A stretch of 36,719 bases of DNA from Candidatus Rokubacteria bacterium GWA2_70_23 (lineage in GTDB: Bacteria > Methylomirabilota > Methylomirabilia > Rokubacteriales > CSP1-6): contig MGBT01000074.1 of NCBI GenBank assembly GCA_001788395.1, positions 16,197-52,915 of the forward strand. The letters run 5' to 3'. Positions 11,074 through 20,182 of the stretch are shown in pieces. Both the position numbers and the translations under genes were made by a program. Each line of letters starts with the position of its first letter. Position 1 is the stretch's first letter. Below the pieces are notes generated by a model. The model was given only the letters and a program-made list of their open reading frames with translations, searched no databases and was not told the DNA's origin.

Positions 11074-11973
11074 CTACGGCACGCGCGCCGACGGCGTGAT
11101 CTGCAGGAGTGAGGAGCTGTCCGTCTCCACCTGGATCGTGGTGTGGTCGATGCCGAAGCGGGCGTGCAGGAGCAGGTGGAGGGCCTGCAGGATGCGATCG
11201 CTCGCGGCGCCGGCGTCCACCACCACATGCGCGCTCATGGCCTCGCGCCCCGACGTGAGCGTCCAGATGTGGAGGTCGTGGACGCGGAGCACCCCCGGGG
11301 CCTCGGCCAGCGCGAGCCCGATCTCGGTGACGTCGAGGTGCGGGGGCACGCCCTCCAGCAGCACGTTCACGGCCTGCCAGAGGAGCGCGCCGGTGCGGGG
11401 CAGGATCAGCAGCCCGATGACGGCGCCGGCCAGCGGGTCGGCCACGTGCCAGCCCGTGAGGGCGATGACGGCCCCGGCGACCAGCACCGCCCCCGAGCTC
11501 AGCGCGTCCCCCAGCACCTCGAGGTAGGCGCCCCGCACGTTCAGGCTCTCGGCGGCGCCGCCGTGGAGGAGGCGCATGCTGGCGAGGTTCGCCGCCAGCC
11601 CGAGGGCCGCTGCCACGACGATCGGGACACCGGCCACCTCGGGCGGCGCCCAGAGGCGCCCCCAGGCGTGCCAGAGGATGAGCAGCGCCAGCACGCAGAG
11701 GAGGACCCCGTTGACCAGCGTGGCCAGGATTTCCACCCGGTAGTAGCCATAGGTCTTGGTCGCGGTGGCGGGCCGCTCGGCCACCCAGATCGCCCCGAGG
11801 CTCAGCAGGATGGCGCCCGCGTCGGTGAACATGTGGGCGGCGTCGGCCAGGAGCGAGAGGCTTCCGGTCCACAGGGCGACGGCCAGCTCCACCACGAGCA
11901 CCGTTGCGGTGAGGGCCAGCGCGCCCAGGAGCCGGGACTTGTGCCGCGAGCCGTGGGTGTGGCGCTGGTGCAC
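11074..11973 (-). CDS. Cation diffusion facilitator (CzcD/ZitB-type metal exporter)
   Basis: This 299-aa inner-membrane H+/metal antiporter of the CDF family exports Zn, Co, Cd or similar ions. The N-terminus is His-rich (HQRHTHG) and followed by six TM helices. The metal site in TM2 is HMFTD (H47, D51). The TM5 partner is E152-xxx-D156 (EVLGD), where ZitB has HxxxD. The C-terminal cytoplasmic domain has VHDLHIWTLTSG. The start is taken as GTG 11973, 8 nt after the DUF192 stop, where the HxHG motif begins; no clear ribosome site is seen. It is last of the metal-handling gene run, so export sits in one transcript with zinc import genes. Confidence 0.88.
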   Translation of the reverse strand: MHQRHTHGSRHKSRLLGALALTATVLVVELAVALWTGSLSLLADAAHMFTDAGAILLSLGAIWVAERPATATKTYGYYRVEILATLVNGVLLCVLALLILWHAWGRLWAPPEVAGVPIVVAAALGLAANLASMRLLHGGAAESLNVRGAYLEVLGDALSSGAVLVAGAVIALTGWHVADPLAGAVIGLLILPRTGALLWQAVNVLLEGVPPHLDVTEIGLALAEAPGVLRVHDLHIWTLTSGREAMSAHVVVDAGAASDRILQALHLLLHARFGIDHTTIQVETDSSSLLQITPSARVP

Positions 11974-11981
11974 GGGGAGGC

Positions 11982-12485
11982 TCAGCGGGTCGGCGGGGCC
12001 ACCAGCCGCACCTCGCCCTGCCGCAGGCCCTGGCTCTCGAAGAAGCCCTTCCGTGCCTCGAGGACGTAGCGGAAGCGGCCCATGGGCCCGTACAGCGCGG
12101 TGGGGCTCGGGTCCATGCGCAGGATGGAGAAGACGCTGCCGTCGGCCTTGGCGAAGGCGATGTCGAGCGGAGCGGGCACGTTCTGCATGTGGAACTGGGT
12201 GACGATCTCCTCGCCGAAGTCGAAGAGGATCAGGTGTCGCTCGATCTCCTCGCGGGTGGCGCACTGGAACCCCGCCGCCTGCTGCTCCCCCGTCCGCGCG
12301 ACACGCACCCGGAGCGCCATGGTCCGGCCCTTGCTCTCCACCGTGACCATGTGGATGGGCATGGAGGCGAAGGCCTGGCGCCAGCGGGGGCATAGGCTGC
12401 TGTCCTCGGCCGCCGCGCCCGCCCCGGCCAGCACCGCCACGCCGAGGAGCGCGGCGGTCGCGCCCCACAGAATCCTGCCGCTCAC
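11982..12485 (-). CDS. DUF192 family secreted protein
   Basis: This 167-aa protein has an N-terminal signal peptide (SGRILWGATAALLGVAVLAG, probable cleavage near GAAA-ED). It is followed by a DUF192 domain: ALRVRVARTGEQQAAGFQ, FHMQNVPAPLDIAFA, GRFRYVLEARKGFFES, QGLRQGEVRLV. DUF192 proteins are periplasmic or extracytoplasmic and of unproven function. GTG 12485 overlaps the znuB stop (GTGA), which decides the start. A Cys near residue 33 and another at the GFQC position could form a disulfide. Its place between zinc importer and metal exporter genes suggests, but does not show, a metal-linked role. Confidence 0.82.
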   Translation of the reverse strand: MSGRILWGATAALLGVAVLAGAGAAAEDSSLCPRWRQAFASMPIHMVTVESKGRTMALRVRVARTGEQQAAGFQCATREEIERHLILFDFGEEIVTQFHMQNVPAPLDIAFAKADGSVFSILRMDPSPTALYGPMGRFRYVLEARKGFFESQGLRQGEVRLVAPPTR

Positions 12486-13309
12486 GCGCGGAGCCCGAGT
12501 GGACGGCGGAGGCCCGCCCGGCTGGCGAGGGAGGCCGCGGCGAAGATGAGGAGCGCCGTGAGCACGATGGCGCCCCCCGCGGCGAGCCTCAGGTAGTAGG
12601 CGGCGATGAGCCCCGCGGTGACGGACAGGAGCGCCATGCCGATGGCGATGCCGAGGGCCTGGCGGAAGCTCCGGCCCAGCGAGAAGCCCGTGAGGGTGGG
12701 GATGACGATCATGGCGCTGACGAGGAGCACGCCCACCATCCGCATGGCGACGACGGTGGTCAGCGCGGTGAGCACCGTCAGCATCAGGTTCAGCGCGGCC
12801 ACCGGCACCCCACTGGTGCGCGCGAGATCCTCGTTGAGCGTGATGGCGAAGAGCTGCCGGTAGAAGAGGCCGATGGCGGCGCCGACCAGAGCCCCCAGGC
12901 CCACGATGAGCCACACGTCGGTGGGGCTCACCGTGAGGATGCTGCCGAACAGGATGGCGAAGAGGTCGGCGTTGAAGCCGCGGGCCAGGCTGATCAGCAC
13001 CACCGCGAGCGCGAAGCCGCCCGAGAGGAACACCGCCAGCGCTGCGTCGCCCTGGAGCGCGCCCCGGGACCGGAGCCGCTCCATGCCTACCGCGCCCGCC
13101 ACCGTCACCACGAGCGCTCCCAGCACGGGGGAGATGCCCAGGAAGAGCCCGAGGGCCACGCCGGCCAGCGCCACGTGCGCCAGCGTGTCAGCGATGAGCG
13201 AGAGCCGGCGCGGGACCAGGAAGACGCCGATGGAGGGGCAGATGATGGCCGTCATGGCGCCGGCCACGAAGGCGCGGTGCATGAAGCCGTACTCGAGGAA
13301 CTCGGGCAT
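12482..13309 (-). CDS. znuB: Zinc/manganese ABC transporter permease (ZnuB type)
   Basis: This 275-aa integral membrane protein of the ABC-3 family has about eight hydrophobic helices. Typical sequences are AFVAGAMTAIICPSIGVFLV, RRLSLIADTLAHVALAGVAL (the cytoplasmic ATPase-docking region) and MRMVGVLLVSAMIVIPT. It forms the channel for divalent metal delivered by ZnuA and powered by ZnuC. Unlike most znu operons, it is separated from znuC by 242 bp that hold inverted repeats. The start ATG 13309 is the first in frame before the conserved N-terminus. Zn versus Mn specificity cannot be settled from the permease. Confidence 0.9.
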   Translation of the reverse strand: MPEFLEYGFMHRAFVAGAMTAIICPSIGVFLVPRRLSLIADTLAHVALAGVALGLFLGISPVLGALVVTVAGAVGMERLRSRGALQGDAALAVFLSGGFALAVVLISLARGFNADLFAILFGSILTVSPTDVWLIVGLGALVGAAIGLFYRQLFAITLNEDLARTSGVPVAALNLMLTVLTALTTVVAMRMVGVLLVSAMIVIPTLTGFSLGRSFRQALGIAIGMALLSVTAGLIAAYYLRLAAGGAIVLTALLIFAAASLASRAGLRRPLGLRA

Positions 13310-13551
13310 CGCGACAGTCCTAGCCAGTCCTCAGCGAGTCTCGTCTGGTCCCCCTGTGCGAGCGCACCGTGCCGGCCCAAGGAACGAGCCAGACGAGGCC
13401 CCGCAGTGCGAGCCGCAGCCGCAGGCCAGGCGAGCGGAGACGGGCACGCGGGCGAGCGGAGCGAGCCGGCGCGGGCGCGAGGCGTACTGGCTGTACGTTG
13501 AGCGCCCGCGCCGACCGAGAACGACGTATGGCGAAGTTCATTGGGCCGGCA
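13310..13551. other. Structured intergenic element inside the znu operon
   Basis: These 242 non-coding bp between znuC and znuB contain two inverted repeats. The first pairs CTCGTCTGG, just after 13340, with CCAGACGAG near 13389-13397 around a loop containing GTGCGAGCGCAC. The second, 13471-13509, has perfect arms GCGGGCGC and GCGCCCGC enclosing an inner hairpin CGTAC-TGGCT-GTACG. The next 30 bp (ACGTATGGCGAAGTTCATTG) look unlike coding DNA. The size, structure and position suggest an inserted repeat family member or an RNA processing/attenuation site. No Rfam family is recognised. Confidence 0.55.
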
Positions 13552-14295
13552 CTAGTGGTGGTGGGCGACGACGCGCACGGCCGGCCCATAGAGCGCGGCC
13601 AGCGCGGCGTCATTCAGGAAGTCCCCGGGTCGGCCGTGGAAGATGAGGCGCCGATTCAGGCAGGCCAGCTTGGTGACCTCTTTTGCCACCACGCCGATGT
13701 CGTGGCTGACCAGGATCAGGGTGACCTCCCGCTCCCGGTGGAGATGCTGCAGCAGGGCGTAGAAGCTCGTCTGCGCTTCCGGGTCCACGCCGCCCGTGGG
13801 CTCGTCGAGGATCAGCAGCTCGGGGTTGGAGACGAGCGCGCGCGCGATGAGGACGCGCTGTTGCTGGCCCGGAGAGAGGGTGCCGATGCGCGCCGCCGCC
13901 AGCGCGTCCATGCCCACGTGGGCGAGGACCTCGCCGACGCGGCGGCGCTCGACGGCGCCCGCGCGCCCGAGAAGCCCGAGCGCGGCCACGAGCCCGCTCG
14001 CCACGACTTCCTGGACCGTGGCCGGCAGCCCGGGATCGAGTGTCGCCTTCTGCGGCACGTAGCCCACGCGCCCCCACTGGCGGAAGCTTTCCGGCGCATG
14101 CCCGAAGAGGCGCACCTTGCCGCTCGACGGTTGCAGCAGCCCGAGTGCGAGGCGGAGGAGCGTGGTCTTGCCGGATCCGTTGGGTCCGATGATGCCCAGG
14201 AAGTCTCCGGCCTCCACGGTGAGGTTGATGCCCTCGAGCACCCGCACCTCGCCGTAGCTGAAGCCCACGTCCTCGATCTCGACGAAAGGCCTCAC
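13552..14295 (-). CDS. znuC: Zinc/manganese ABC transporter ATP-binding protein (ZnuC type)
   Basis: This 247-aa cytoplasmic ATPase has Walker A GPNGSGKT (37-44), Q-loop VPQKA, signature LSPGQQQR (P replaces the first G of the usual SGGQ), Walker B LLILDEPTGGVD and switch SHD. It powers metal import through ZnuB. The protein ends in three histidines (VVAHHH), a small possible metal-sensing tail. ATG 14295 overlaps the znuA stop as ATGA. Length and motifs are normal for the ZnuC/MntB group. Confidence 0.92.
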   Translation of the reverse strand: MRPFVEIEDVGFSYGEVRVLEGINLTVEAGDFLGIIGPNGSGKTTLLRLALGLLQPSSGKVRLFGHAPESFRQWGRVGYVPQKATLDPGLPATVQEVVASGLVAALGLLGRAGAVERRRVGEVLAHVGMDALAAARIGTLSPGQQQRVLIARALVSNPELLILDEPTGGVDPEAQTSFYALLQHLHREREVTLILVSHDIGVVAKEVTKLACLNRRLIFHGRPGDFLNDAALAALYGPAVRVVAHHH

Positions 14296-15233
14296 GAGCA
14301 GTCCAGGGCAACGCGCAGGTTCTTCAGGTTCTCCTCCATCAAGGCCACGTAGCCCTGGCCCGCTCTCGCCTGCTCCGGCGTGATCCCTTCCACCGGGTTC
14401 AGGACCAGCGTCCGGGCTCCGATCTCCCGGGCCAGCGTCTCGGCCAGCCGCGGGCTCACGAGCGTCTCGAAGAAAATGTACTTCACTTTCTTCTGGCGCG
14501 CGAACCGGACGATGGCGGCGAGCTGGGCCGGGCTCGGCTCCGCCTCGGGCGCGAGCCCCATGACCGGCACCACCGACAGCCGGTAGCGGGCGGCCAGATA
14601 GCCGAAGGCCGCGTGGGAGACGACGATCTCCCGGCGGGCGCAGCGGGCGAGGCCCGCCGCGTAGGTCTGGTCCAGGAGCGCGAGCATCGCCTGGAATGCG
14701 CGGGCACGCTCGGCATAGGCGCTTGTCCCCCCGGGGTCGCTCGTGGCCAGCGCCTCCCGGATGCGCTCCACCATGGCCTGGGCCAGCACGGGGTCGAGCC
14801 AGACATGGGGGTCGGGGGGCCCGCCGCCGGTCCCCGTCATGAGCGGGAGCCCCTGCGTGATGTTCACGGCCGTGGCTTTCGTCGCCGCGTCCCCGAGGAG
14901 CTTGCCCACCCAGGGCTCGAGGCCGGCGCCGTTGTAGACCAGGAGGCGCGCCCGCTGCAGCAGCGCCACGTCCTGCGGCGAGGGCTCCCAGTCATGGGGC
15001 TCCACGCCGGTCGGGACGAGCGAGATGACCTCGGCGCGATCGCCCGCGACCTGCCGCGAGAACTCGTAAAGCGGATAGAAGGTGGCGACCACCAGCGGCT
15101 TCGACGACGGCGCTGGGGGCTCGGTGCAGCCGGCCGCGCCGAGCGCTAGGAGCGCGACCGCCGCGCGCCATCCCCGGCGCCAGCGCCGGCTCAGGAGTCG
15201 CCTCGCAGCGCGGCGAGTCGCGCGCTCTCCCAC
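14292..15233 (-). CDS. znuA: Zinc/manganese-binding lipoprotein (ZnuA, cluster A-I)
   Basis: This is a periplasmic metal-binding lipoprotein with a lipobox (LLALGAAGC, acylated Cys near residue 36). Metal ligands are visible as H in GVEPHDWEPSPQD, H in PDPHVWLDP, H in VVSHAAFGY, and an acidic partner near the C-terminus (VLNPVEGIT). It lacks the long His-rich loop of many ZnuA proteins; only a short GTGGGPPDP loop is present. The start is uncertain: no ATG precedes the signal peptide. GTG 15233 is given (313 aa, 43-bp overlap with the PAP2 gene). A CTG at 15194 overlapping the PAP2 stop (CTGA) with GAGG upstream is a good alternative (300 aa). Confidence 0.88.
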   Translation of the reverse strand: MGERATRRAARRLLSRRWRRGWRAAVALLALGAAGCTEPPAPSSKPLVVATFYPLYEFSRQVAGDRAEVISLVPTGVEPHDWEPSPQDVALLQRARLLVYNGAGLEPWVGKLLGDAATKATAVNITQGLPLMTGTGGGPPDPHVWLDPVLAQAMVERIREALATSDPGGTSAYAERARAFQAMLALLDQTYAAGLARCARREIVVSHAAFGYLAARYRLSVVPVMGLAPEAEPSPAQLAAIVRFARQKKVKYIFFETLVSPRLAETLAREIGARTLVLNPVEGITPEQARAGQGYVALMEENLKNLRVALDCS

Positions 15234-15808
15234 CACGCCCCGCCTGCGGCGCAGGCCGTGCCGAGCGCCCAGCCCCCGAGGACGTCGGTGGGCCAGTGGG
15301 CGTTGAGCATGATGCGGGCCCAGCCGACTCCCAGGACGAGGATCACGGCCAGCGCCACGAGGGCCACGCGCCGGCGACGGCTCGCGCGCTCGCGGCTCAG
15401 CACGTAGATGAGGATCACGGCGAACGTCGCGACGGCGGTCGAGTGACCGCTGGGGAAGCCGAAGGACTCGCCGGCCGGCCGCGGCCTTCCCACGAGGAAC
15501 TTCGCGGCGGTCTCCGCGAGGCCCGAGACGGCGAAGACGGCGCCCCACAGCCACCAGTGCCGTCGGGCCACCGGGGACAGCGCGAAGAGCAGGAGCATGG
15601 CCGGGACGAGCACCCGGACGGTGCCCCCGGAGTTCACCCACCGGGCGACCTCGAGCATCCTCGACGTCTGGCCGTCGATGAGGCCCTGGCGGACCGTGAC
15701 GTCGCCGGGAGCGATTCCGGCGAGGAGGGCGGCGAGTCCCAGCGCGGCGAAGGCGGCAAGGCCCGCCAGGCATGCCGCCCGCCAGCGCGCCTCGGCCGTG
15801 GAGGTCAT
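15191..15808 (-). CDS. PAP2-superfamily membrane phosphatase
   Basis: This 205-aa type 2 phosphatidic acid phosphatase-like membrane protein has about five to six TM helices. The three catalytic motifs are complete: K103-x6-R110-P111 (KFLVGRPRP), P119-S-G-H122 (PSGH) and R165-x5-H171-xxx-D175 (RIMLNAHWPTD). It may dephosphorylate undecaprenyl pyrophosphate, phosphatidate or phosphatidylglycerol phosphate; substrate is not readable from the sequence. ATG 15808 overlaps the preceding ferric-reductase/Rieske stop (ATGA); another ATG at 15817 is possible. Its reason for being in a metal operon is unclear. Confidence 0.88.
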   Translation of the reverse strand: MTSTAEARWRAACLAGLAAFAALGLAALLAGIAPGDVTVRQGLIDGQTSRMLEVARWVNSGGTVRVLVPAMLLLFALSPVARRHWWLWGAVFAVSGLAETAAKFLVGRPRPAGESFGFPSGHSTAVATFAVILIYVLSRERASRRRRVALVALAVILVLGVGWARIMLNAHWPTDVLGGWALGTACAAGGAWWESARLAALRGDS

Positions 15809-16779
15809 GAGGGACATTGTATTCGAAGAGGTGGAGACGGGCGGGCGAGATAGGTGGTTTCGCCGACGGTCACCAGGGGATACGTCGAGACGAAATCCGA
15901 GAAGCCGGGCGGACCCTGGCCCGTGCGCGGGTCGAACTGATACCCGTGCCACGGGCACTCGAGATAGCCGTCGCGGACGCGCCCCTCGCCCAGCGGGCCG
16001 TTCTGATGCGGACACACGTTGGAGACGGCGTGGAGCCGGCCCTCCAGCCTCACGATGGCGATCCGCTCGCCACTCGCGCAGACGGCTCTGGCCTCGCCCT
16101 CGGCGAGATCGGCGAAGCACCCCAGCGGGACGAGGCCGTCGGGCCCCGGGGGCGCCGCGTGATCGGCGGCGGCCTCCTTGACCCCGGCGGCGATGTGGAG
16201 CGCCGCCGGGGTGCCGACCACGGCGAAGAACCCCCCGGCCAGCGCCCAGGGGATCGGCCCCTCCTCGGAAGCGAGCCGAGTCAGCACGTGAATGGCCAGC
16301 AGGCCGTACGCCGCGTACACGGCCATGTGGAGGCGCTTCCAGCTCGCGGGCCCCCAGGCGTGGAGAAAGTGGTCCCACGAGGTGAGCGCCATGGCGGTGA
16401 GGATGACGAGGGCCGCGGCGCCGAGGACAGGGTACGGGATACCGAGGAAGCGCTCGCCCTGGGCGGCATCGAGGAGCCCTCTCGGGTCCCAGCCGGCGGC
16501 GTAGTGCAGGACGAGGCCGGCATGGAGGGCTCCCAGCGCCCAGGTGGTGACGCCCAGATGGCGCCGGTGATAGATGAGGCGCGTGGCGGGACGCCAGAGC
16601 CTGGCCAGAGGGCCGAGGCTCAGCACGGTGCTCAGCAGGAGGAACGCGAGCGTCGCGCTGGCGCGCACCAGGAAGACGTCGCGGTCGGGGCCGGGGAAGA
16701 GAGCGCGGCCGCCGGCGAACCAGACGAGGATCAGGAGCGCGAGGGTCGCGTCGAGCTTCCACTTGGCGGTGACGCTCAC
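15805..16779 (-). CDS. Ferric-reductase-like transmembrane protein fused to a Rieske [2Fe-2S] domain
   Basis: This 324-aa membrane protein has two parts. Residues 1-200 hold six or so TM helices of the ferric reductase/MsrQ-like group, with candidate heme ligands H86, H92, H151 and H164. Residues 215-315 are a Rieske domain with cluster ligands C256-H258 (CPHQNGPLGEG) and C275-H278 (CPWHGYQFD). It should carry electrons across or along the membrane between heme b and a Rieske cluster. Partners may be the cytochrome c fusion encoded upstream or quinones. The GTG start at 16779 overlaps a 32-aa upstream gene (GTGA). Heme and Rieske modules are usually separate polypeptides, so the fusion is notable. 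Confidence 0.85.
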   Translation of the reverse strand: MSVTAKWKLDATLALLILVWFAGGRALFPGPDRDVFLVRASATLAFLLLSTVLSLGPLARLWRPATRLIYHRRHLGVTTWALGALHAGLVLHYAAGWDPRGLLDAAQGERFLGIPYPVLGAAALVILTAMALTSWDHFLHAWGPASWKRLHMAVYAAYGLLAIHVLTRLASEEGPIPWALAGGFFAVVGTPAALHIAAGVKEAAADHAAPPGPDGLVPLGCFADLAEGEARAVCASGERIAIVRLEGRLHAVSNVCPHQNGPLGEGRVRDGYLECPWHGYQFDPRTGQGPPGFSDFVSTYPLVTVGETTYLARPSPPLRIQCPS

Positions 16780-16874
16780 GGCTGCACTGCCAGGATCACC
16801 GCCGCGGCGGCGGCGATGAGGACGATCCAGACGATCCAGATCCGCCGATGCGCTTTGCGAAGGGGCGCGATCAT
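16776..16874 (-). CDS. Membrane microprotein, 32 aa
   Basis: This tiny gene encodes MIAPLRKAHRRIWIVWIVLI followed by an Ala/Val-rich end and VQP. It is one predicted TM helix with a positive N-terminal side (RKAHRR), so likely N-in. Its reality rests on context: ATG 16874 overlaps the stop of the 39-aa gene as ATGA, and its stop overlaps the GTG start of the ferric-reductase/Rieske gene as GTGA. Such perfect chaining by chance is improbable. No family is recognised. It may be a small subunit of the adjacent redox membrane protein. Confidence 0.6.
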   Translation of the reverse strand: MIAPLRKAHRRIWIVWIVLIAAAAAVILAVQP

Positions 16875-16990
16875 GCCGGGCGTCGGCGCCGGGGCGAGAG
16901 CGCCTGCGCCATCCGGCGGAGGTCGTGGGTGCGGAAGATGACGAACCAGCGCTGGTCGGGGCTGAAGCCGATCTGATAGGGATCGCTCAC
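16871..16990 (-). CDS. Small protein, 39 aa, unknown
   Basis: This short gene starts with GTG 16990, overlapping the stop of the CusF-like gene (GTGA), and ends at TGA 16871, overlapping the ATG of the 32-aa gene (ATGA). The product begins MSDPYQIGFSPDQRWFVIFR, continues with THDLRRMAQALS and ends in a basic PRRRRPA tail. No signal or TM segment is seen, so it is probably cytoplasmic. It is aromatic-rich and basic-tailed and could bind a membrane partner or nucleic acid. No family is recognised. Confidence 0.58.
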   Translation of the reverse strand: MSDPYQIGFSPDQRWFVIFRTHDLRRMAQALSPRRRRPA

Positions 16991-17364
16991 ATCTTCCCCT
17001 GCGTCGTCATCTCGGTGATCGTCATTCTCGGCGGGATGCCCCTGAGCGTGAACCGCACGAGGTCGCCGATCCCTGTCGCAGCGAGCAGCTGCGGGTCCTG
17101 AATCTGGAAGCCCATGGTCATGGAGGGCATGAAGCCGGCGATGTCATCGTGGGTGAGGATGACGACGTTCAGCTCGGGGAGCAGCCCGCGCACCACGCCC
17201 TGGCCCGTGAAGACCTGCTCCACCCCCGGAAAGGCGCCGCGCTGGCGGGAGAGCGCCAGCGCTTCCTCGAGGCGCGGGATCTGCCGGCCCCAGGCGAGGT
17301 AGCCGAGAAAGAGCCCGGCGGCGAGCGCCAGGTTCACGAGGAGCACAACCCGCCAGAGCCTCAT
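16987..17364 (-). CDS. CusF-like copper-binding protein, membrane-anchored
   Basis: This 125-aa protein has an N-terminal TM anchor (residues 4-25). The rest is an extracytoplasmic domain of the CusF/copper-binding OB fold: TGQGVVRGLLPELNVVILTH, then IAGFMPSMTM and GDLVRFTL. In CusF-type domains the His and the MPSMTM methionines (79-84) bind Cu(I) or Ag(I). The same domain often accompanies SCO or copper efflux proteins. ATG 17364 lies 13 nt after the upstream stop with GAGG before it. A longer start at 17388 (133 aa, overlapping the upstream gene by 11 bp) is possible. It follows a CopD fusion gene, in line with copper handling. Confidence 0.78.
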   Translation of the reverse strand: MRLWRVVLLVNLALAAGLFLGYLAWGRQIPRLEEALALSRQRGAFPGVEQVFTGQGVVRGLLPELNVVILTHDDIAGFMPSMTMGFQIQDPQLLAATGIGDLVRFTLRGIPPRMTITEMTTQGKM

Positions 17365-17377
17365 CGAGTGTCCGGCC

Positions 17378-19396
17378 TCAGTGGACATGCTCGGCCGGCG
17401 GCGGCGCCGGCCTCTCGAGGGTGAGCCGCCCGAGCTCGGCGAGGATGGCGGCGGGATCCGACCAGCCGGGGGCCGCCCCTCCGGGGATCCAGCGCGCGCG
17501 GAGATACCCCTGGCGGTCGATCAGGAGCTCCATGTGCTCGGGCATCGGCGGGTCGGGGCGGAGACCATCGGGCAACAGGGTAACCCGGAAGAGGCCATAG
17601 GTCCGCGCGATCTCCTCGCTGCCCTCGGTCACCACGGGAAGGAGGATCGGGGGGGGTCCTCCGAGGCGTCTGATGATCCTGGCGCCGCCGTCCAGCGGGA
17701 CCGCGAGGATCTCGCCGCCCAGCGCCCGCAGCGTCTCGTAGGTCCGCCCCAGCCGCGCGAGCCGGTCTCGAGAGCTCGGAAGGCTGAAGAATACGAGGAG
17801 TACGGCCCGCTGCCCTCGAAACTCCTTGAGGGCCCGACCCGGCCCTGGACCAGCGGAGTAGCTGAAGTCGGGAGCGACGATCCGGGGCCGGTCGGGCTCC
17901 ACCGCCGAGCCGAGCCCGCGCGCCTGCGCGGATGAGGCGAGGGAGCGCAGGAAGTTGACCACATCCCAGCGTTCCTCGGCGCCGAGCTTTTCGGCGAAGC
18001 CCGGCATGCCGCCCCGGGGGATGCCGTGGGTGAGCCACCAGAAGATGTCGCCCGCCGTGTGCTCGGCCGTGTGAGGCCCAGTGAGGTCGGCCGGCTTCCT
18101 GGGGAGCCCCGATCCACGCGGACCGTCGCCCAGCCCGGCCGCCCCGTGGCATTCCGCGCAATGCTCTCTGTAGAGCGCCATGCCCCTGGTCACCGAGCCC
18201 GCGTGGTAGGTCGCGGCCGGACGGCGGTACGTGGATGGATAGGCGTCCACGGTCATGGGCGGCAGGGCGAGGAGGAGCCCTGCAGCTATGGCCGCTGCGC
18301 CTGCGCCGAGCACCAGGCCCCGGCGCCTCCTGAGCAGCGCACCCGTGACCACTGCCAGCAGGCCCACCACGGCGACCTGGCTGCCGACGAGCACGCGTGG
18401 CTGAAGGCCGGCGGGGCCGACGGCGACGTTGTACGAGAAGCGGAACGACAGCGGCCACGACGGGCTCTCGTGTCGCGCCGGCGGGGTGACGGTGAGGACG
18501 CTGACGACCACCAGGGCCAGCGCACCGAGCACCCACTCGATGGCCACCAGCCTGCCGAGCCGCGCCATGGCGGGGCGGCCCACCTCGGCGGCATCGCCGG
18601 AAAGGGCCGGAAGCAGCCGCCGGCTCCGGCTCGCCACGATGAGAACGGCGAGCACGAGGACGATCTTGAGGAGCAGCAGCCGGCCATAGCGGGTGCCCAC
18701 GAGGGCCGGCACGCCGCCCACCTGGCTCCACGAGTTTCCGATGCCGGTGGCGCCGAGCAGCAGCATCGCGGCCAGCGCGATGCCGGAGAAGCGACGGACA
18801 GCGACGACGGCCTCGGGCCGGCTGTCGGCCCCAGCCTCGCGCGAGGCGGAGCGGAGCAGGAGGCTCAGGGGCAGAAGGGTGCCGAGCCAGGCGCCCGCGG
18901 CGATCAGGTGGGTCGCGTCCGCCAGCGCGGCCCAGAGCGCTCCGGGCTCCACCGCGGCGGCATGGCCCGCCCAGCCGAGCGCCGCCAGCGCCGCCGCGCC
19001 CAGCAGCCACGACTCGATCCGGAGCGCGGCCCAGTCGGCAGTCGACTCCTCGCGCTCGCGCAGGAGCGCGAGAGCCGCGAGCAGGAGGAGCAGCACGTGG
19101 CGGAAGAGCCAGACCGCGCCCCAGCGGGTCTCGAGCAGCACGCCGAGCCACGCGGCGAGCTCGAGGGCGGCAGCGGGCCGTCCGGCGAGGTGAGCCGACT
19201 GATGCGCCACGAGCAGCAGGCCCGAGAGGAGCGCGAGCCCGGCCAGCCGCCGCGCCCAGCGGCCGAGGCCCTCGTCCCAGGCGCGCGCCATGGGACGCAG
19301 GCGCGGCCCCGCGAGCAGGGAGGCCGTGAAGAGCCCGATGAGGAGGATGCCCGCGAGGAGATTGATCCAGCGCAGGCCAGCGCCCAGGGCGGTCAT
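17378..19396 (-). CDS. CopD copper-import domain - cytochrome c - thioredoxin-fold triple fusion
   Basis: This 672-aa protein has three modules. Residues 1-380 are a CopD-like copper resistance/import region with about eight to nine TM helices and His/Trp-rich segments (VAHQSAHLAG, ADATHLIAAGAWLG). Residues 395-490 are a class I cytochrome c domain with heme site C413-A-E-C-H417 and probable axial M464 (MPGF). Residues 500-660 resemble a redoxin/SCO-type thioredoxin fold (LLVFFSLP, ILAVPLDG, HMELLIDRQGYLRARW), but the CxxC position reads SLPSS (538-542), with no cysteine. The two C-terminal modules would be periplasmic. ATG 19396 directly follows a palindromic promoter; no ribosome site is seen. 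It heads an 11-gene run. Confidence 0.85.
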   Translation of the reverse strand: MTALGAGLRWINLLAGILLIGLFTASLLAGPRLRPMARAWDEGLGRWARRLAGLALLSGLLLVAHQSAHLAGRPAAALELAAWLGVLLETRWGAVWLFRHVLLLLLAALALLREREESTADWAALRIESWLLGAAALAALGWAGHAAAVEPGALWAALADATHLIAAGAWLGTLLPLSLLLRSASREAGADSRPEAVVAVRRFSGIALAAMLLLGATGIGNSWSQVGGVPALVGTRYGRLLLLKIVLVLAVLIVASRSRRLLPALSGDAAEVGRPAMARLGRLVAIEWVLGALALVVVSVLTVTPPARHESPSWPLSFRFSYNVAVGPAGLQPRVLVGSQVAVVGLLAVVTGALLRRRRGLVLGAGAAAIAAGLLLALPPMTVDAYPSTYRRPAATYHAGSVTRGMALYREHCAECHGAAGLGDGPRGSGLPRKPADLTGPHTAEHTAGDIFWWLTHGIPRGGMPGFAEKLGAEERWDVVNFLRSLASSAQARGLGSAVEPDRPRIVAPDFSYSAGPGPGRALKEFRGQRAVLLVFFSLPSSRDRLARLGRTYETLRALGGEILAVPLDGGARIIRRLGGPPPILLPVVTEGSEEIARTYGLFRVTLLPDGLRPDPPMPEHMELLIDRQGYLRARWIPGGAAPGWSDPAAILAELGRLTLERPAPPPAEHVH

Positions 19397-19420
19397 GGCG
19401 TTCCATTATAATGGAGCGCC
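19397..19420. promoter_or_regulatory. Palindromic divergent promoter with symmetric -10 boxes
   Basis: The entire 24-bp space between two divergent ATG codons is a palindrome with 11 of 12 base pairs matching; its core is TCCATTATAATGGA. TATAAT on the plus strand is 19407-19412, and TATAAT on the minus strand is 19410-19405. Each ends 8 nt before its ATG. Transcription would therefore start at or next to the start codon of each gene (leaderless), and neither gene has a Shine-Dalgarno. The dyad could also be a repressor or metal-regulator operator that shuts both promoters. The geometry is seen directly; the regulatory role is inferred. Confidence 0.65.
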
Positions 19421-20182
19421 ATGCGACGCTCACGGCCGCTCCGGGCCATCATCTTCGACGCGGGCAACACGCTCGTGCGGATGAACTATGGCGCCATCGC
19501 GGAGCAGCTGCGGGCGCGGGGACACCGTGTGAGCTTCGCGGCCGTGGAAGAGGCGGAGCTGCGCGCGCGCGTGCGGCTCGACGTGCACCTGGGGCCGGGG
19601 GCGCGCACCGACAGCGGCACGATGGAGCGCGCCTCCACCGAGAGCCGGACCACTCACGGCCGCTATCTCCGCTACATCCTCGAGCCCCTCGGGATCACCG
19701 GCGAGCCGGAGATCGAGGAGATCGCGCGGTGGCGGCGGGGCTACAACCTGCCGGTGGGGCTCTGGAACGTGGCCGATCCGGGCGCCGAGGCTGCGCTCCG
19801 GCGCGTCAAGGGGGCGGGGCTCGTGGCGGGCGTCATCTCCAACTCCAACGGGTCGGTGCGCTCGATCCTCGAGGCCACGGGGCTTGCCGCGCACCTCGAC
19901 TTCATCATCGACTCGGCCGTGGTGGGGGTGGAGAAGCCCGATCCGCGCATCTTCCGCATCGCTCTCGCCGAGGCCGGCGTCGCGCCGGACGAGGCCGTCT
20001 ATGTGGGCGACCTCTACTCCGTGGACGTGCTGGGAGCGCGCAGCGCGGAGATGGCGGCCGTGCTTCTCGATCCGCGCGGCTTCTGGGGCGAGCGCGACTG
20101 TCCGCTGGCCCCGGACCTGGCGGCGGCCGTCCGGCTCGGTCTCGACGCGCGCCGCCCGGCCGGGCGCACGTCAGGATTGTGA
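19421..20182 (+). CDS. HAD-superfamily hydrolase
   Basis: This 253-aa haloacid dehalogenase-like protein has motif I FDAGNTL (nucleophile D13), a helical cap, motif II VISNSNGS, motif III lysine in VEKPDPRIF and motif IV YVGDLYSVDV. The second acidic residue of the classic DxD is Gly15, as in the FDAGGTL subgroup. This makes ordinary phosphatase general-acid chemistry less certain. It is cytoplasmic and of normal length. The start ATG 19421 lies immediately after a palindromic promoter. The frame ATG 19411 in another register has no HAD homology. It is divergent from the copper/zinc gene run, so it may share its control. Confidence 0.85.
   Translation: MRRSRPLRAIIFDAGNTLVRMNYGAIAEQLRARGHRVSFAAVEEAELRARVRLDVHLGPGARTDSGTMERASTESRTTHGRYLRYILEPLGITGEPEIEEIARWRRGYNLPVGLWNVADPGAEAALRRVKGAGLVAGVISNSNGSVRSILEATGLAAHLDFIIDSAVVGVEKPDPRIFRIALAEAGVAPDEAVYVGDLYSVDVLGARSAEMAAVLLDPRGFWGERDCPLAPDLAAAVRLGLDARRPAGRTSGL

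Follow-up and report, generated by a model that had tools for sequence, protein, structure and literature searches.

Two adjacent metal units, probably separately promoted, in a Rokubacterial copper-cluster locus

Bacterial copper import is poorly understood. In Bacillus subtilis, the CopD-type protein YcnJ imports copper and thereby supports haem-copper oxidases (PMC13344008). The subject here is a run of eleven frames that starts with a CopD fusion gene. It is located in a window of 36,719 nucleotides (the whole stretch of DNA that was analysed) from Candidatus Rokubacteria bacterium GWA2_70_23. An earlier note on this DNA had described the run as a possible undescribed metal-handling system, apparently under one promoter, and had offered metal reduction and uptake as one reading. 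The reading preferred here, held with moderate confidence, is that the run consists of two neighbouring, separately promoted envelope metal units within a Rokubacterial copper-cluster locus. It builds on what was observed: which genes are present, how far they are conserved and in which order they lie in different genera, together with conserved promoter-like elements and invariant residues.

The run was checked by listing the open frames, translating them and searching for domains. All eleven frames are present on the minus strand, from 11074 to 19396, and nine of them match named protein families. The ends of most frames overlap, as had been claimed; the exception is znuC/znuB, which are separated by a 242-base gap consisting of a dispersed repeat. 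The features of the locus are as follows.

17378..19396, minus strand: CopD–cytochrome c–thioredoxin-like fusion, 672 amino acids, ending in EHVH
16987..17388, minus strand: putative CusF-like membrane-anchored copper-binding protein, 133 amino acids
16871..16990, minus strand: 39-amino-acid open frame, probable YVTN propeller relict, coding status doubtful
16776..16874, minus strand: 32-amino-acid microprotein with a single transmembrane segment, just upstream of the ferric-reductase/Rieske gene
15805..16779, minus strand: Ferric_reduct transmembrane domain with a C-terminal Rieske [2Fe-2S] domain, 324 amino acids
15191..15817, minus strand: PAP2 phosphatase (PF01569, 1.8e-20), start at 15817, or at 15808 if leaderless
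14292..15236, minus strand: ZnuA-type metal-binding lipoprotein (PF01297, 3.7e-83)
13552..14295, minus strand: ZnuC-type ATPase (PF00005, 6.1e-33)
13310..13551, no strand: dispersed repeat in the znuC–znuB gap, 67 matches in its own genome
12482..13309, minus strand: ZnuB-type permease (PF00950, 1.2e-68)
11982..12485, minus strand: DUF192 protein (PF02643, 3.1e-17)
11074..11973, minus strand: CDF cation exporter with an HD-ED site (PF01545, 3.4e-40; TIGR01297 above cut-off)
19402..19415, no strand: 14-base-pair palindrome TCCATTATAATGGA, overlapping TATAAT on both strands, probable shared -10 of copD and HAD
15816..15821, minus strand: TACAAT, promoter-like -10 before PAP2, probable promoter of the zinc half
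19421-20182, plus strand: HAD-family hydrolase gene, divergent from copD

The locus was compared with 57 genomes of family f1, which holds the window genome, and with 95 genomes of the phylum. The CopD fusion was found in 50 of the 57 family genomes and, outside the family, in four genomes only. In 39 of 40 family loci, cusF follows copD within 200 bases. Downstream genes were counted in the 26 family loci with at least 4.5 kilobases of sequence after copD: 21 of them have PAP2 and 19 have a YVTN propeller. A second metal-binding protein/permease pair (SBP2/perm2) is present in 12, and 14 have a metal ABC gene of either type (SBP2/perm2 or ZnuC). Besides the window, ZnuC lies downstream of copD in G055, G024, G025, G035 and G056. 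The run represents one local form of a conserved copper cluster of Rokubacteria, not an undescribed single-operon system. No description of this cluster was found in the open-access literature searched. Two side observations concern the family cluster. The SBP2/perm2 genes (binding protein and ABC-3 permease) stand beside copD-cusF without an adjoining ABC ATPase (e.g., L085:3119-4890 and L123:6739-8452). In the family copper cluster, L085:6673-7665 encodes a cytochrome c domain and, after it, a P19-like Fe2+ transport domain with a weak match (PF10634, slightly under the cut-off); the window locus has no such gene.

The earlier note had proposed one promoter for the whole run. Hexamers resembling a -10 element were sought on the minus strand between 10900 and 19500 under the rule of at least 5 of 6 matches, including A2 and T6. 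Two only were found, TATAAT before copD and TACAAT before PAP2. The first lies in the palindrome TCCATTATAATGGA, which is 8 bases from the start of copD and 8 from that of the divergent HAD gene; the two start codons (19396 and 19421) are just 24 bases apart. The palindrome is probably a shared -10 for copD on the minus strand and HAD on the plus strand, with both messages predicted to be leaderless. The gap that separates HAD from the cop genes holds a similar element in L104, L115, L105, L040, L042, L113 and L120, which represent several genera. In most loci of the family, the HAD gene itself remains next to the copper cluster. The second element, TACAAT, precedes the PAP2 start codon at 15808 by seven bases. 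It recurs 7-9 bases before the PAP2 start in L040, L042, L105, L107 and L121 (genera g8 and g12), and these five carriers are, G055 apart, all the relatives that have PAP2 beside znuC. It was seen in none of the 20 other PAP2 genes scored, G055 included; random stretches carry such an element at a rate of 0.85%. With a second -10-like element conserved in five relatives, a single promoter is doubtful, and each half, copper and zinc, probably has its own.

The two halves are nevertheless linked. ZnuA was found in 11 of the 57 family genomes. Six of the eight genomes that have both ZnuA and the CopD fusion (G000, the window genome, with G055, G024, G025, G035 and G056) keep the two on one contig, so the link between copper and zinc genes is not chance. 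The physical linkage of copper and metal-ABC genes, which the earlier note had pointed out, is repeated across several genera. In genus g8, L040 has the window's genes minus the 39-amino-acid frame and with znuA and PAP2 swapped; L042 likewise has the window's genes minus this frame, with SBP2/perm2 kept in between. The scattering among relatives that had been named as telling against a joint system was found in part. The zinc module is apart from copD in G022, G030, G040 and G054, and in most of the family copD-cusF occurs with no zinc module. In G030, G040 and G054, the module away from any copD comprises znuA-znuC-znuB-DUF192, and in a ZnuC tree these three group together, apart from the window type. 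Such rearrangement bears on the possibility that two housekeeping metal units adjoin by descent and have no joint function. The separate promoter-like elements fit this possibility, as do the recombination of modules (PAP2 and znuA change order from genus to genus, and SBP2/perm2 is present in some loci and not in others) and the dispersed repeat that breaks the run. Yet the genes stay together in six of eight genomes despite rearrangement, and in most of the family copD has a metal ABC gene or PAP2 downstream. A neighbourhood without joint function is considered very improbable.

The CopD part of the fusion protein matches PF05425 (71.5 bits against a gathering score of 32.1), and the fusion misses the NCBIfam copper_CopD equivalog cut-off (145.4 against 195 bits). 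Its cytochrome c part matches PF00034, and the haem motif CxxCH (C413xxC416H417) is invariant among 38 fusion sequences. The C-terminal thioredoxin-like part has a weak match to PF00578 (AhpC/TSA), below the Pfam cut-off. A structure model built with the 38 sequences was good (predicted local distance difference test score, pLDDT, 88); Foldseek searches with it returned ResA/peroxiredoxin and c552 matches, and the modelled C-terminal domain has a fold like that of ResA and peroxiredoxins. An identity as a TlpA/ResA thioredoxin was ruled out: despite the similar fold, the CxxC active site is missing. LPxS stands at the active-site region, and no Cys occurs beyond residue 500 in any of the 38 sequences. 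All 38 end in HVH (H670-V-H672). The codons of this end vary synonymously, and therefore the constraint acts on the protein; the tail is a candidate copper site. H145 and H163 are also invariant in the 38 and may correspond to the conserved transmembrane His on which copper uptake by YebZ and YcnJ depends (H295 in YcnJ). The Cys-free thioredoxin-like domain with its constant HVH end, together with the HD-ED metal site of the exporter, is a new feature of the locus.

The CusF-like protein matches PF11604 (2.4e-12; 47 against 27 bits), and H80, M87, M90 and M92 are invariant among 37 sequences. E. coli CusF has a Trp ligand; at its position the CusF-like sequences have Phe or Tyr, rarely Leu. 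Of the two microproteins proposed in the run, one stands. The 32-amino-acid protein is 44-50% identical in L040, L041, L042 and L125, where it overlaps the start of the reductase gene; it travels with this gene and is conserved in another genus. No counterpart of the 39-amino-acid frame was found in relatives, and it was ruled out as a conserved gene on this ground. Its first 17 residues weakly resemble NPYNLAFTPDGRYLYVL at the syntenic place, and the frame is probably what remains of the YVTN propeller gene found after cusF in the family.

The reductase combines a transmembrane domain matching PF01794 (1.5e-9; 38.4 against 28 bits) with a Rieske domain matching PF00355 (1.5e-16), which stands where ferric reductases have an FAD/NAD(P)H module. 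The Rieske CxH/CxxH motif is invariant among orthologues. An identity as MsrQ was ruled out by score (49.7 against 130 bits). The full gene occurs in 4 of the 57 family genomes, and the same four (the window genome, G022, G024 and G025) remain the only carriers among the 95 phylum genomes. A scan of a genome collection outside the phylum gave Rieske-only matches, with L125 as the sole exception. L125, filed as an actinobacterium, has the microprotein/reductase pair and shares an identical microprotein with L124, a reductase-bearing relative filed as Candidatus Rokuibacteriota; for this reason, the L125 contig is probably mis-binned. The neighbours in L125 were read by eye as a P-type copper ATPase, a multicopper oxidase, an outer-membrane channel and CusF proteins. 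The window reductase is 61-62% identical to its orthologues, in line with the neighbouring genes, and because its identity to the g8 copies matches that of these neighbours, the gene is probably old and has been lost repeatedly. G055, of the same genus, has no reductase though it keeps copD-cusF-pap2-znuA-znuC-znuB; only 112 bases separate its cusF from the aligned PAP2 start. The second transmembrane loop of the reductase has 4-5 Lys/Arg in all four sequences. By the positive-inside rule, the Rieske domain is therefore probably on the cytoplasmic side, which would make the electron flow outward. This orientation comes from loop charge only, as the structure model (mean pLDDT 55, four sequences) was too weak for a fold search.

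These findings bear on the reading offered in the earlier note, a single reductive uptake operon in which the haem/Rieske and CopD-cytochrome c proteins reduce Cu(II) or Fe(III) and the downstream transporters cooperate. The tight overlap of gene ends, the constant presence of the reductase and its microprotein near copper genes or metal transporters, and the outward electron flow suggested by loop charge all fit it. The reductase, however, is missing from G055, which retains the other visible genes of the cluster, an internal promoter-like element is conserved, and the zinc half stands alone in three genomes. A single operon of this kind is distinctly unlikely. Reductase-dependent import is not supported as the core of the system when so few genomes carry the gene; since the reductase is sporadic and missing from a same-genus relative, a reduce-then-import route is optional at best, a possible add-on in the few reductase-bearing genomes.

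The preferred two-unit reading assigns to the first unit the copD fusion, cusF and, in few genomes, the microprotein and the ferric-reductase/Rieske gene. This unit would take periplasmic copper. The CopD membrane part would move copper across or into the inner membrane, with the fused cytochrome c on the periplasmic side. The Cys-free thioredoxin-like domain with its invariant HVH end would bind and not reduce, and the anchored CusF-like protein would hold copper. Where present, the Rieske domain would hand electrons to membrane haems, which would carry them outward to an acceptor in the periplasm; Cu(II) and Fe(III) are possible acceptors. The metals, the direction of transport, the electron path, the regulation and all activities in both units are what we infer from sequence.

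The second unit would consist of PAP2, ZnuA, ZnuC, ZnuB, DUF192 and CDF, a zinc-type ABC importer plus an exporter, and would occupy the place where many family members have an SBP2/perm2-type pair without its own ATPase. Binding-protein, ATPase and ABC-3 permease genes adjoin, as in zinc ABC importers. The closest PDB relatives of ZnuA are YcdH and AdcA; its H81, H144, H208 and E283 are invariant among 11 sequences and aligned with the YcdH/AdcA site. The window proteins all score below the NCBIfam equivalog cut-offs for ZnuA/B/C and AztA/B/C. The window genome has neither the family perm2 nor a close YVTN orthologue. As ZnuB is the one ABC-3 permease found there and perm2 is absent, ZnuACB is the sole predicted importer of its class in this genome, at the position where relatives keep SBP2/perm2. 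The CDF exporter passes TIGR01297 (259 against 82 bits). H47, D51, E152 and D156 are invariant among five sequences, forming HD-ED and not HD-HD, and E152 aligns with the His of ZnT proteins. A ZitB-type zinc CDF identity was ruled out, as the HD-HD transport site is missing. The swap of Glu for His affects the half of the transport site that lies in the fifth helix. The metal preference of this exporter may differ from zinc.

Several points weigh against the two-unit reading. The PAP2 element was not seen in G055, although PAP2 lies with znuA-znuC there, and the five carriers are related, so that they give support and not proof. Overlapping gene ends continue through the PAP2 junction; transcription that starts at the copD promoter is therefore likely to run on into the zinc half, and the units are possibly co-expressed. 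A general promoter scan found no promoters, the -10 elements being consensus matches, and a general terminator scan found terminators at chance level. No CopC open frame adjoins copD in the window, in contrast to YcnJ and many relatives. The import direction of CopD is debated in general, and the locus could equally protect against copper. In a defence of this kind, the CopD fusion, CusF and reductase would handle periplasmic copper excess while the zinc importer and exporter counter mis-metallation. CusF is known from efflux systems, and the copper-handling frames beside the L125 genes would suit such a role. The window locus, however, has no copper efflux pump and is partnered by the importer ZnuACB, and the CopD proteins for which there is evidence act in supply (PMC13344008), which makes copper defence unlikely.

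A bolder reading is rather doubtful. It holds that the locus is a form of a Rokubacteriales envelope copper-supply system, absent from the literature searched, in which the CopD-cytochrome c-dead-thioredoxin fusion with its copper-binding HVH tail would couple copper transport to periplasmic electron flow. Its partners would be the CusF-like anchor, an exchangeable ABC importer (the ATPase-less pair or ZnuACB) and, in some genera, the outward-sending Rieske-haem reductase. Nearly all genomes of this uncultured soil family carry the fusion, which frequently adjoins a metal ABC importer and offers a concrete candidate for a supply of copper linked to redox. The conserved copper core is now set apart from the reductase, which occurs sporadically and had attracted notice at first.

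Several parts of the locus can be compared with known systems. The palindrome resembles bidirectional bacterial promoters in having a symmetrical -10 able to serve both strands (PMC12825309), and differs from them in being a 14-base-pair perfect palindrome with both predicted messages leaderless. The reductase shares with MsrQ and ferric reductases (PF01794) a haem-binding transmembrane domain with conserved His, but carries a C-terminal Rieske domain and not an FAD/NAD(P)H module. Like ZnuABC, AdcA and AztABC (cluster A-I, ABC-3), the zinc-type unit has all three parts and a His3-Glu site; unlike them, it is interleaved with PAP2, DUF192 and CDF genes and has a repeat between znuC and znuB. 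The CusF-like protein has the His and Met-x-Met ligands and the small periplasmic copper-binding fold of CusF (PF11604), whereas it has a membrane anchor, is not beside a Cus efflux pump and has Phe or Tyr in place of Trp. Finally, the CopD fusion resembles YcnJ (PMC13344008) and E. coli YebZ in its CopD membrane domain, whose invariant His may match theirs, and, as in those systems, an extra C-terminal domain is fused to CopD beside a periplasmic copper-binding protein. In contrast to YcnJ and YebZ, the window copD has no adjoining CopC open frame, is fused to a cytochrome c and a Cys-free thioredoxin-like domain ending in HVH, and is linked to a zinc-type ABC unit.

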